Positions 19,979 to 22,241 of a DNA stretch of 42,998 bases are shown here, one piece after another (positions within the stretch are counted from its first letter, which is position 1; each line of letters begins with the position of its first letter). The stretch comes from Lachnospiraceae bacterium (GTDB taxonomy: Bacteria; Bacillota; Clostridia; Lachnospirales; Lachnospiraceae), in the NCBI GenBank assembly GCA_017634455.1, contig JAGBNK010000002.1, positions 1 to 42,998 of the forward strand. The letters are read 5' to 3'. The notes under the pieces are model-generated. The model saw only the letters and a program-made list of their open reading frames with translations, ran no database searches and was not told the origin of the DNA. The translations under genes and the position numbers were made by a program.

Positions 19979-20139
19979 AGAAAGTAACAAACTTAAACTG
20001 TAGGTATATTTATTTTGATGAAATACACGATATAATAATTATAGAAGGAAATCTTCTGATTTATAAATGCATGTGGGGTATTTAAATTGGAAGTTGTGTA
20101 TTGAATCAAAGGAGTTTATGAGAATGGGAGGTGGCAAAT

Positions 20140-21087
20140 ATGAAATTTAAGAGAATTAGTGAAAAACAGATACAGTGTCTGATATCTCAAGAAGAACTTA
20201 TAGAGAAGGGAATTGCCATCGACGACTTCCTTGATCACAGAGACAAGACTGAGGAATTTCTTCGAGAGGTTGTAGATGAGGCACAGGATGCATTAGACAT
20301 TGAGGAGATGGGACATTTCTTCAGCGTACAGATGCACATTTTAAAAACAGGTAATGTCTCTCTAATTATTAATTTAGAGGGTGATGAGGGTCACAACTCT
20401 GTAATGGATGAGATTATAGAGTCTGCTGAGAGTCTGGGCAGATTCAAAGATAAATATGGCCAAGAAGCTTTTGATGATTTGTCAAATACAGTTATCAAAG
20501 ATTTGGTAGATATGTTGATGAAGTCTGCAAGTCTTGATGATGACGACAATGATGATGAGCCAGAGGTTGATGGACATGCATATAATGCAGCGCATACTTA
20601 TGGTGATGATTCTGATTTACTATATGATGTTGATGATCCGGAAACTGGAAATGCAGACCCGTATGCACAACTTCCTGAACCACTTAGGAAATTCATTAAG
20701 GGGGATTATCCAACAGATTCTAATGAAGGACAGAAAACGGATAAGGCTACTAAGCGTGCTGCAAATCAAGATAATGATGAAACTCCAGATGAAATACTTG
20801 GTGGAAAATCTGTATTTGTCAGAATGGAGACATTGGATGATTGCATCCGTATGAGCAAGGCTTTGAAGGATGTGAAATGCAACTACTCTAAATTGTACAA
20901 GTATGATGAGGAATACTACATTGAGATTGCATTTATCAATGATTCGAAGTTTGTGGCAGGCCAGATTATGACAATCAGCGAATACGCTGAGGAAATCTTC
21001 ACATTTGATGAAGGTGGCGCTCTCATTGAGGAGCATGGCAAGCCAATCATTTCAGAAAATGCAGTTGCAGTGCTTGCGAAGTTGTAA
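20140..21087 (+). CDS. mecA: MecA-type adaptor protein for ClpC
   Basis: A 315-aa adaptor that delivers substrates to the ClpCP protease. The N-terminal substrate-binding domain begins MKFKRISEKQIQCLIS and contains EELIEKGI and EFLREVVDEA. An acidic low-complexity linker of about 90 residues follows (DDDDNDDEPE). The C-terminal ClpC-binding domain has VFVRMETLDDCIRMSKAL and ISEYAEE. The linker is long and Asp-rich compared with Bacillus MecA. ATG 20140 is preferred over GTG 20131 because GGAGGT lies 7 bp upstream. An out-of-frame short ORF with its own ribosome site overlaps the start. The gene ends in a strong terminator. Confidence 0.88.
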   Translation: MKFKRISEKQIQCLISQEELIEKGIAIDDFLDHRDKTEEFLREVVDEAQDALDIEEMGHFFSVQMHILKTGNVSLIINLEGDEGHNSVMDEIIESAESLGRFKDKYGQEAFDDLSNTVIKDLVDMLMKSASLDDDDNDDEPEVDGHAYNAAHTYGDDSDLLYDVDDPETGNADPYAQLPEPLRKFIKGDYPTDSNEGQKTDKATKRAANQDNDETPDEILGGKSVFVRMETLDDCIRMSKALKDVKCNYSKLYKYDEEYYIEIAFINDSKFVAGQIMTISEYAEEIFTFDEGGALIEEHGKPIISENAVAVLAKL

Positions 21088-21131
21088 ATGGAATGATTAA
21101 AAAGTGGATAATTATATTTCGGTTAGTATAA

Positions 21132-21168
21132 AACCTCTCTGCTGGTTGTACCAGCGGAGAGGTTTTTT
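21132..21168 (+). terminator. Terminator after mecA
   Basis: AACCTCTCTGCTGGT pairs with ACCAGCGGAGAGGTT with one mismatch, followed by six T. Confidence 0.9.
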
Positions 21169-21206
21169 GTGTTGCTGTAAAGCGGAGGGCTTTTGTGTTG
21201 CTGTAA
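21152..21206 (+). repeat. Direct repeat duplicating the 3' half of the mecA terminator
   Basis: AGCGGAG plus TTTTGTGTTGCTGTAA occurs twice; the 16-mer is identical at 21165-21180 and 21191-21206. The second copy lacks a stem partner. Confidence 0.6.
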
Positions 21207-21210
21207 TGGA

Positions 21211-21565
21211 ATACGGTTGGAATTGCCAATAATGCTCGAACCAGCCGTATGTTTATGCCGCCACGCATCAGGAATACGGCTGTAATTGCCCATAGTGCCC
21301 AAATCAGCTGTATCTTTATGCCGCCGCGCCGCAAGAATACGGCTGTAATTGCTGATAATGCCTGAAATAGCCGTATTTAGCGACAATCCCGTCGCCGGGA
21401 TACGGCTAAGAAGAACAAAAAGAAAGAAATTGACTGCTCTTGAAACTCCCTCATGTCAAAAAGGACAGATGAAACCGAGCTTTACGCATATATTATCCGC
21501 CTTTGGCGACAAGTGAACTGCGTGGATACGGCTGGAATTGCCAATAATGTTCGAACTAGCCGTAA
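21211..21565 (+). repeat. Array of 40-nt hairpins in exact 63-bp phase
   Basis: Units start at 21211, 21274, 21337, 21400, 21463 and 21526, each 63 bp apart with no indel. Units 1, 2, 3 and 6 are 40-nt hairpins opening ATACGG and closing with AGCCGTA or a one-base variant. They share a loop region like AATTGCCAATAATG and are separated by 23-nt GC-rich linkers. Unit 4 keeps only its 5' arm and unit 5 only its 3' arm region and the GCGACAA linker motif. Stem changes in units 1 and 2 are G-U wobbles only in plus-strand RNA. This fills most of the 555-bp gene-free space between mecA and the next gene. I see no coding function. Confidence 0.85.
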
Positions 21566-21589
21566 AAGTAAAAAAAGTTGGAAAAACTA

Positions 21590-21642: not shown

Positions 21643-21888
21643 ATGAGAAAGAGATATGAAGATGGAATAGTTCCGCAGAGCTCGACAGAAGCTAGACAGG
21701 AAGCGGCAAGACAATTGAAAGAAGCTAGATTAGCAGTCAACTTGACGCAACAGGTTTTAGCTGATCGATCTGGAACGCAGAAATCGAACATTTCTCGTAT
21801 GGAGAGTGGAAAGTATAATCCGACTCTTGATTTTCTCGTGAAAGTCGCTGAAAGCATGGGAAAGCGTGTTGTTATTCGTATCGAATAA
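21643..21888 (+). CDS. XRE-family regulator (HigA-like, no toxin partner)
   Basis: An 81-aa protein. Residues 22-76 form a typical HTH: ARQLKEARLAVNLTQQVLA, then GTQKSNISRMESGKYNPTLD, then LVKVAESMGKRVVIRIE. This layout, with an N-terminal extension and a final beta strand, matches antitoxins of the HigA/RelB-partner type and phage-like repressors. No toxin gene is on either side: upstream is the hairpin array, downstream a terminator. Its promoter contains a perfect palindrome overlapping the -10, which points to autoregulation. Confidence 0.85.
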   Translation: MRKRYEDGIVPQSSTEARQEAARQLKEARLAVNLTQQVLADRSGTQKSNISRMESGKYNPTLDFLVKVAESMGKRVVIRIE

Positions 21889-21957: not shown

Positions 21958-22241
21958 TTAGTGATAGTTGTTGAGATGATTGAATTATAATTAATGCAGT
22001 CAATATAATTGTAACTGGTATTATTCGATATTTAGGCTTTTGACATTACGCCGGATAAGTTATAATTATGAGCGAGAAAAATATAGAAGAAGTCGCTAAG
22101 TCTCGGTTGAGCTGGAGCGTTGATATTGTAATGATTTCAGCAGAGCTAGAACATTGTTATTGTAAGAGCTTCAGCAGGGATGATATTTAAATAGTTGATA
22201 GATAATTACAGGATATTAATTAGTAGGAAAGAGGATGGTAT

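Follow-up and report, generated by a model that had tools for sequence, protein, structure and literature searches.

Helically phased arrays of inverted half-sites in Lachnospiraceae genomes as candidate double-stranded DNA binding platforms of predicted PD-(D/E)XK-type nucleases

A tandem array of six inverted-half-site units is present in a 42,998-nucleotide stretch of DNA from a Lachnospiraceae bacterium (GenBank assembly GCA_017634455.1, contig JAGBNK010000002.1, positions 1 to 42,998 of the forward strand; this whole stretch is hereafter the window), and similar arrays often lie directly upstream of genes for a family of predicted nucleases. Judged from sequence comparison, the arrays would serve as double-stranded DNA binding platforms of cognate predicted PD-(D/E)XK-type nucleases, a reading given a probability of about 0.7, and the window copy was likely once such a platform. 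The family accounts for a type of repeat that gut bacteria carry at many loci; the open-licence PMC papers searched contain no description of these arrays, nor of the nuclease together with arrays.

The window array occupies positions 21211 to 21564 of the plus strand (half-sites from 21212), with units starting at 21211, 21274, 21337, 21400, 21463 and 21526, in a register of exactly 63 bp. A unit consists of the inverted 7-bp half-sites TACGGYT and ARCCGTA, spans 38 bp between its outer edges and is followed by 25 bp before the next. Both arms are present in units 1, 2, 3 and 6, which makes four intact units: unit 1 (21212..21249) reads TACGGTT-N24-AGCCGTA, unit 2 (21275..21312) reads TACGGCT-N24-AGCTGTA with one change in the 3' half-site, and units 3 (21338..21375) and 6 (21527..21564) both read TACGGCT-N24-AGCCGTA. 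Unit 4 has lost its 3' half-site and keeps the 5' half-site TACGGCT alone (21401..21407), and unit 5 (21464..21501) carries the degenerate half-sites GACAGAT and ATCCGCC exactly in register; all six are given for the plus strand. Tandem Repeats Finder reports a period of 63 at 21208-21376. A preliminary description of the window had noted an exact 63-bp phase over six units, and this was borne out by the unit starts and by a shuffle test, in which the real array has four inverted-arm units in one register and none of 20,000 mononucleotide shuffles had more than one. Its alignment of the diverged unit at 21463 with unit 3 held as well, with 33 of 63 bases identical, a level reached by none of 20,000 shuffles.

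The suggestion that the array represents a new repeat family is supported, as the same plan recurs in many Lachnospiraceae genomes. BLASTN misses this family, whereas half-site pattern searches do not: a BLASTN search with the array on 145 genomes (its own included) returned only the array itself and a 24-nt match in one genome (G043), which lies in lysine-rich coding sequence and was judged a chance match. In these 145 genomes, the pattern TACGGYT-N-ARCCGTA mostly has one or two matches per genome, like the backward control; the outliers are G030 (25 matches), G023 (11) and G075 (28), where the matches are arranged as arrays with a spacing of 52 or 53 bp. A three-arm pattern occurs in 13 of 397 family genomes, own genome included, ten of them with at least two matches; the single matches in G198, G322 and G436 equal the level of the reversed control, which gave single matches in four genomes, and these three are not counted as carriers. 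A four-arm pattern applied to named genomes yields at least 120 stretches, often on several contigs per genome, in Blautia, Mediterraneibacter, Eisenbergiella, Roseburia, Drancourtella and others. Among the listed stretches, all but one are titled as Lachnospiraceae genera or as unnamed Lachnospiraceae, Clostridia, Firmicutes or Bacillota, the exception being Actinoplanes (L158). Together with the window, and with one Actinoplanes match included, these stretches form a measured set of 126 arrays and 657 units. The outer unit length is 37 bp in 485 of the 657, the commonest array size is six units (41 of 126 arrays), loops are mostly alike inside an array, and 25 of 124 arrays overlap an open reading frame (ORF) of at least 90 aa. 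Unit spacings number 531, of which 493 fall at 49-54 bp, 38 at 62-63 bp and none in between; because the four-arm pattern requires one 16-bp spacer, these counts overstate the short class, and some arrays are truncated where a contig ends.

At many loci of Eisenbergiella-type genomes (L151, L155, L157, L172, L176, L197, L199 and L248), a six-unit array is held within an element of ~490-520 bp with 15-bp terminal inverted repeats (GTTACTTTTCAYGGG). Among eight complete copies, 8-bp duplications are seen at 0-1 mismatch in three, at 2-3 mismatches in two and not at all in three; a ninth element pair (L150) without an array was dropped. These copies thereby bear the marks of a miniature inverted-repeat transposable element (MITE), namely terminal inverted repeats and target duplication. 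Going by its sequence, this element looks like passenger transport of arrays by an unrelated transposase.

The partner of the arrays is a protein of ~265 aa, whose gene has the array 11-159 bp upstream in 20 of 20 loci. This protein has no Pfam or NCBIfam match above cut-off and is predicted to carry a PD-(D/E)XK-type nuclease domain, an assignment drawn from a listing of predicted-fold matches in which the absence of a family does not exclude it. The residues E167, P197-D198-F199 and E213-H214 are invariant in 66 diverse members, and thirteen invariant residues lie in the nuclease half. The family is large: of 7,997 proteins scored, 4,639 reach an E value of 1e-10 or better, and homologues occur in 129 of 397 family genomes, with up to six each (six being the number scored per genome). 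Genomes with firm TACGG arrays carry a homologue in nine of ten cases (all but G385), compared with 120 of the 387 others (Fisher p 0.0002). As far as seen, the nuclease is a chromosomal gene: a single match was found in 50,697 phage records, and no plasmid match extends over more than 58% of the nuclease length. Two long frames, in L306 and L328, were suspected of being gene fusions but are taken to run through the upstream arrays. At five loci (L088, L123, L178, L180 and L189), the array-nuclease locus adjoins genes that, judged by eye from the start of their sequence, look like those for ribosomal proteins L13 and S9, a neighbourhood that suggests old vertical inheritance of the locus.

The association of arrays with the nuclease extends well beyond the TACGG type. 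Ninety-one homologue loci were examined, comprising two from the own genome, 30 returned by the homologue search and 59 picked from its listed matches, six of them with less than 200 nt upstream. Autocorrelation, which uses no half-site model, reaches 0.60 or more in 58 of 85 upstream regions, compared with none of 46 window tiles and none of 27 downstream stretches (downstream peak 0.53). An inverted-arm finder applied to full 900-nt upstream regions detects arrays in 65 of 76, against 1 of 76 shuffled regions, 3 of 46 tiles and 4 of 31 downstream stretches; when at least three spacings are demanded, the counts are 52 of 76 against 0 of 76, 0 of 46 and 0 of 31. The half-sites upstream of divergent homologues include TACGGYT, GGCTACC, TACGTA, TGACTG, GTGACC and GTACCC, among others.

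Across these different sequences, the spacing of units follows a ladder of helical turns. The 131 distinct spacings are grouped at 51-54, 61-65, 70-77, 82-86, 94, 105-108 and 115-116 bp, with single ones at 45 and 47; those above 100 bp may be steps over an unrecognised unit. The distance to a multiple of 10.5 bp is 2 bp or less for 124 of the 131, where 38% would be expected, and seven are off the ladder; the Rayleigh R at 10.5 bp is 0.79. When a single array is taken per cluster (<45% protein identity; n=37), R rises to 0.88 (p 5e-13), and it is 0.84 for the 21 above 57 bp. Single arrays may mix different steps, as in L301 (62, 52, 83, 52, 52, 61 and 84 bp). Within an array, the unit length is constant to a base or two and the spacer varies by whole turns, as expected if adjacent units have to present their proteins on the same side of the helix. 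Both suggestions of the preliminary description, 63 bp as six helical turns and selection for phasing, are supported, 63 bp being one of the spacings of five to nine turns seen across the family. Outliers by autocorrelation are L306 and L335 (G413), with perfect 30-bp periods off the ladder, L285 (39 bp) and L292 (45 bp); the arm finder gives mostly 53 bp in L292 and 70-77 bp in L285. This 10.5-bp ladder would constitute an unusually clear natural record of one-face DNA binding.

Half-sites also change along with the nuclease. Pairs of nucleases with more than 70% identity share half-sites in six of six cases, those at 60-70% in 53% of 34, those at 50-60% in 10% of 86, and those below 50% in 3-4%; the Mantel correlation between nuclease and half-site (r 0.19) was reached by none of 2000 permutations. 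Furthermore, paralogues inside one genome have different half-sites, both in G075 and in the window's own genome (G000, ~93% complete). The intact nuclease of the latter (C2:8088) is accompanied by a GGCTACC array with alternating 73- and 74-bp steps, equal to seven turns. Exact GGCTACC units number 24 at six loci in G000 (spacing 73-74 bp) and 21 at four loci in the same-genus genome G002, which belongs to a sister species, and none occurs in a further genome of the genus, G001. All four G002 loci, defined by the exact pattern, are orthologous to G000 arrays. In one array aligned between the two genomes, with a 74-bp spacing in both, identity is 69/70 in half-sites, 109/120 in loops, 114/144 in spacers and 568/599 in flanks, which in this alignment is evidence of purifying selection on half-sites. 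The proposal of an old coding repeat is not supported, since half-sites and spacing are kept as spacers diverge; no Pfam family matches the 95-aa ORF of the minus strand. The arrays of this unnamed, large protein family display its probable binding sites, so that dozens of protein/site pairs could be read from genomes alone.

The 63-bp type of the window has relatives within the genus. A model of the window units finds more 63-bp arrays in G000 (C23 and C36) and G002 (C12, C7 and C19), several of the matches being weak (E 0.003 to 1) but with units in 63-bp register, and it has no match anywhere in the G001 genome. The locus at G000 C23 (L358:2620-3978) has an array of eight units and one further half-site ~20 nt before an ATPase_2/DUF234 gene; at the same locus in G002 (C7, L367), two units remain. 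At G002 C12, eight 5' half-sites (TACAGAT, TGCAGAT or TACGGCT) stand in perfect 63-bp register, and an intact nuclease gene follows 221 bp later. Half-sites near this nuclease include TACAGAT and ATCTGTA, comparable to GACAGAT/ATCCGCC of window unit 5. Only two homologues occur in G000, the GGCTACC nuclease and a broken one at C3, neither of them close to the C12 gene (34-36%); the nearest relative of the broken copy here is in G001 (58% over the longer piece). No cognate nuclease for the 63-bp type was detected in G000, despite at least three arrays of this type. From this pattern, the window array has probably lost its partner nuclease and become an orphan in decay, and its worn units fit such a loss.

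In the window, the array lies between a MecA-domain gene (20131..21087, plus strand), followed by its terminator-like inverted repeat (21130..21166, plus strand), and a helix-turn-helix (HTH_3) gene downstream (21643..21888, plus strand), which is not the nuclease. The interval 21179..21569 has no alignment to the syntenic locus of G002, where a short unrelated stretch replaces the array and gene order is unchanged; the array is missing at the syntenic place of G001 as well, where less of the spacer aligns. No target duplication or terminal inverted repeat is apparent at the window in the alignment with G002, no systematic search having been made there, and phages and plasmids gave no DNA match to the window array. 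Immediately left of the array, the terminator tail (GAGGnnTTTTGTGTTGCTGTAA) is present twice, 26 bp apart (21159-21206). A 34-bp repeat in two copies lies at 22109-22177, between the HTH gene and an RsmF-type methyltransferase gene.

The preliminary description regarded the array as a row of hairpins and as a candidate non-coding RNA. The hairpin part stands for units 3 (z -3.5) and 6 (z -2.2), which fold clearly better than shuffles, and fails for units 1 (z -0.8) and 2 (z 0.1), as well as for units 4 and 5, whose folding energies are no better than those of shuffles; the U-G pairs noted in the stems of units 1 and 2 are correct for the window array. Covariation in the four window units is uninformative, as it is reached by 260 of 500 shuffles. 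Covariation was tested on 664 units from 122 de-duplicated arrays, Actinoplanes left out, and the arms do not change together: the C/T position of the half-site is changed in both arms of a unit in three cases, with 2.65 expected. Arm position 6 (C or T) was free in the search, other positions being constrained because units were picked by near-consensus arms; the within-array test of this position had only two usable arrays, and the pooled test was used instead. Mismatched arm pairs counted as stored, with array orientations mixed, comprise 102 G-T and 97 A-C, and on the sense strand of adjacent nuclease genes (115 units, 20 loci) they comprise 17 G-T and 25 A-C, giving no G-U preference there; arms are common to the units of one array, so that mismatch counts, here and below, are not independent, and single arrays lean 31 to 33. 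Pairing of the arms does not seem to be a conserved feature of these sequences. At the gathering threshold, Rfam finds only tRNAs in the window and only unrelated families in 12 array loci. In addition, quantisation by helical turns is a property of double-stranded DNA and argues against an RNA reading. A structured non-coding RNA, an RNA hairpin array or guide RNAs, including arrays like those of tandem interspaced guide RNA (TIGR) systems, would also have to accommodate loops that are mostly alike inside an array rather than spacer-like, and a TasH match that covers a helical hairpin only and appears alongside prefoldin and V-ATPase stalks, hence a common arrangement. An RNA function is therefore not supported and appears very improbable.

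In the mechanism proposed for the binding platforms, each inverted pair of half-sites would bind one protein dimer, whole-turn spacing would orient the dimers towards a single face of the helix, and neighbours would touch and bind cooperatively. Where the array covers the promoter region of the nuclease, its filling would repress that gene. Arrays dispersed elsewhere in the genome would be additional sites for binding, spread by a copying process in which the nuclease itself may have had a part. With the first position of the model taken as the gene start, the last half-site lies at most 45 bp from it in 12 of 65 arrays and at most 70 bp in 28 of 65, distances at which the promoter would often overlap the array. 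A complete two-part system of a new, genome-wide class, in which fast-diversifying nucleases with their own half-sites form one-faced filaments on arrays spaced by whole helical turns, repress themselves and copy arrays by break and repair, as a double-stranded DNA counterpart of repetitive extragenic palindromic (REP) sequences and TnpAREP that employs an unrelated nuclease, is put forward tentatively, at somewhat less than even odds.

Several observations weigh against the platform reading. The lysine expected at the active site from the classical PD-(D/E)XK motif is not readily recognised, and the assignment as a nuclease is based on middling matches of a predicted fold together with the E, PD and E-H invariants. 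Upstream regions do not always carry an array, as the arm finder detects none in 11 of 76 and autocorrelation is below 0.60 in 27 of 85. G385, a 99%-complete genome, has TACGG arrays and no detected homologue, a second orphan case, so that arrays either can occur in its absence or are bound by a different protein. A 63-bp array (G000 C23, G002 C7) ends close upstream of the ATPase_2/DUF234 gene and the window array lies upstream of the HTH gene, so that other genes are possibly regulated. The nuclease missing from G000 may lie in a gap of the ~93% complete assembly. Separately, one result leans towards the RNA reading: with arrays oriented according to the A-rich centre of their loops (653 units, 119 arrays), mismatched arm pairs number 120 A-C and 78 G-T, and the opposite strand accordingly has more G-U than A-C.

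Some of these points fit a different account, in which the arrays are operators of an unrelated regulator or nucleoid protein and the nuclease is just one regulated gene. The positions upstream of the ATPase_2/DUF234 and window HTH genes, together with the arrays of G385, speak for such operators, but a shared regulator would not explain why half-sites change along with the nuclease sequence or why paralogues in G000 and G075 differ in theirs, which makes this account unlikely. A closer contender, possible although it must be held in some doubt, is a selfish or domesticated pair resembling a REPtron (the pairing of REP sequences with TnpAREP), in which the nuclease cuts DNA and copies the array, dispersed arrays are non-autonomous satellites, and spread, rather than self-regulation, is the main function. 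Arrays are indeed dispersed, with six loci of one type in G000 and many per genome; the nuclease is chromosomal as far as seen, its nuclease half keeps the thirteen invariant residues, and the window array is absent at the syntenic place in G002 and G001. On the other hand, all four G002 GGCTACC loci are orthologous to G000 arrays, so that movement is rare there; no sign of a target duplication was found at the window, and the element that carries Eisenbergiella-type arrays, with its terminal inverted repeats and duplications, looks like the work of an unrelated transposase.

A neutral minisatellite expanding by slippage would account for unit numbers that differ between species, such as eight at G000 C23 and two at the same locus in G002. 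This explanation is scarcely credible and, for the family, is regarded as refuted, as half-sites are conserved and spacers are not in the one aligned array, and architecture and helical spacing remain constant over different sequences, unlinked loci and different genera. A clustered regularly interspaced short palindromic repeats (CRISPR) array was also considered; the short inverted arms and the loops that are mostly alike inside an array do not fit one, the neighbouring genes having been clustered but no scan for cas families made.

With respect to known systems, the PADLOC models PDC-S68 and PDC-S69, candidate defence families, are similar at the C-terminal nuclease domain, with E down to 2e-27. 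PDC-S68 differs in that its models have ~1,200 residues, of which only the last part matches the array nuclease. We know of no array association for either model, and a literature search by name was empty. I-Bth0305I is a phage-type homing endonuclease of the EDxHD class, for which an array of sites is not described in the relevant passages of PMC3943268. TIGR-Tas systems, in the excerpted account of PMC12045711, have two alternating repeats of 8-12 nt, an edge repeat and a loop repeat, each followed by a 9-nt spacer, and produce guide RNAs of 36 nt to which a Nop domain binds. Their tandem arrays likewise adjoin a gene whose product may include a nuclease domain, and their repeats, in that account, vary between loci and are constant inside a locus; unlike their 36-nt units, the present arrays have spacings of 51-94 bp in steps of 10.5, and Pfam scans found no Nop family.

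REP sequences and bacterial interspersed mosaic elements (BIMEs), together with TnpAREP (REP-associated tyrosine transposase, RAYT), constitute the REPtron, which passages of PMC8266576 and PMC3116915 describe as intergenic palindromic repeats in many copies, often in tandem, beside a co-evolving nuclease gene. TnpAREP is an HUH enzyme that acts on folded single-stranded REP with a GTAG tag (PMC8266576, PMC3116915, same passages). The array family likewise consists of intergenic palindromes in many copies, often tandem, beside a nuclease gene with signs of co-evolution, and it too combines dispersed copies with one locus adjoining the nuclease. It differs in that its partner has a predicted PD-(D/E)XK-type fold, without a Pfam match above cut-off, rather than an HUH/Y1 fold, and in that no GTAG-like tag is seen by eye in the printed arrays, where the bases before TACGG vary. 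REP is recognised as single-stranded DNA, whereas the arrays, whose arms lack covariation, appear to be double-stranded, with spacing locked to helical turns. On sequence grounds, the array family is distinct from TIGR-Tas, CRISPR and any Rfam family, and the enzyme class, tag and single-strand recognition that define a REPtron are not seen in it; its plan, nevertheless, resembles that of REPtrons.
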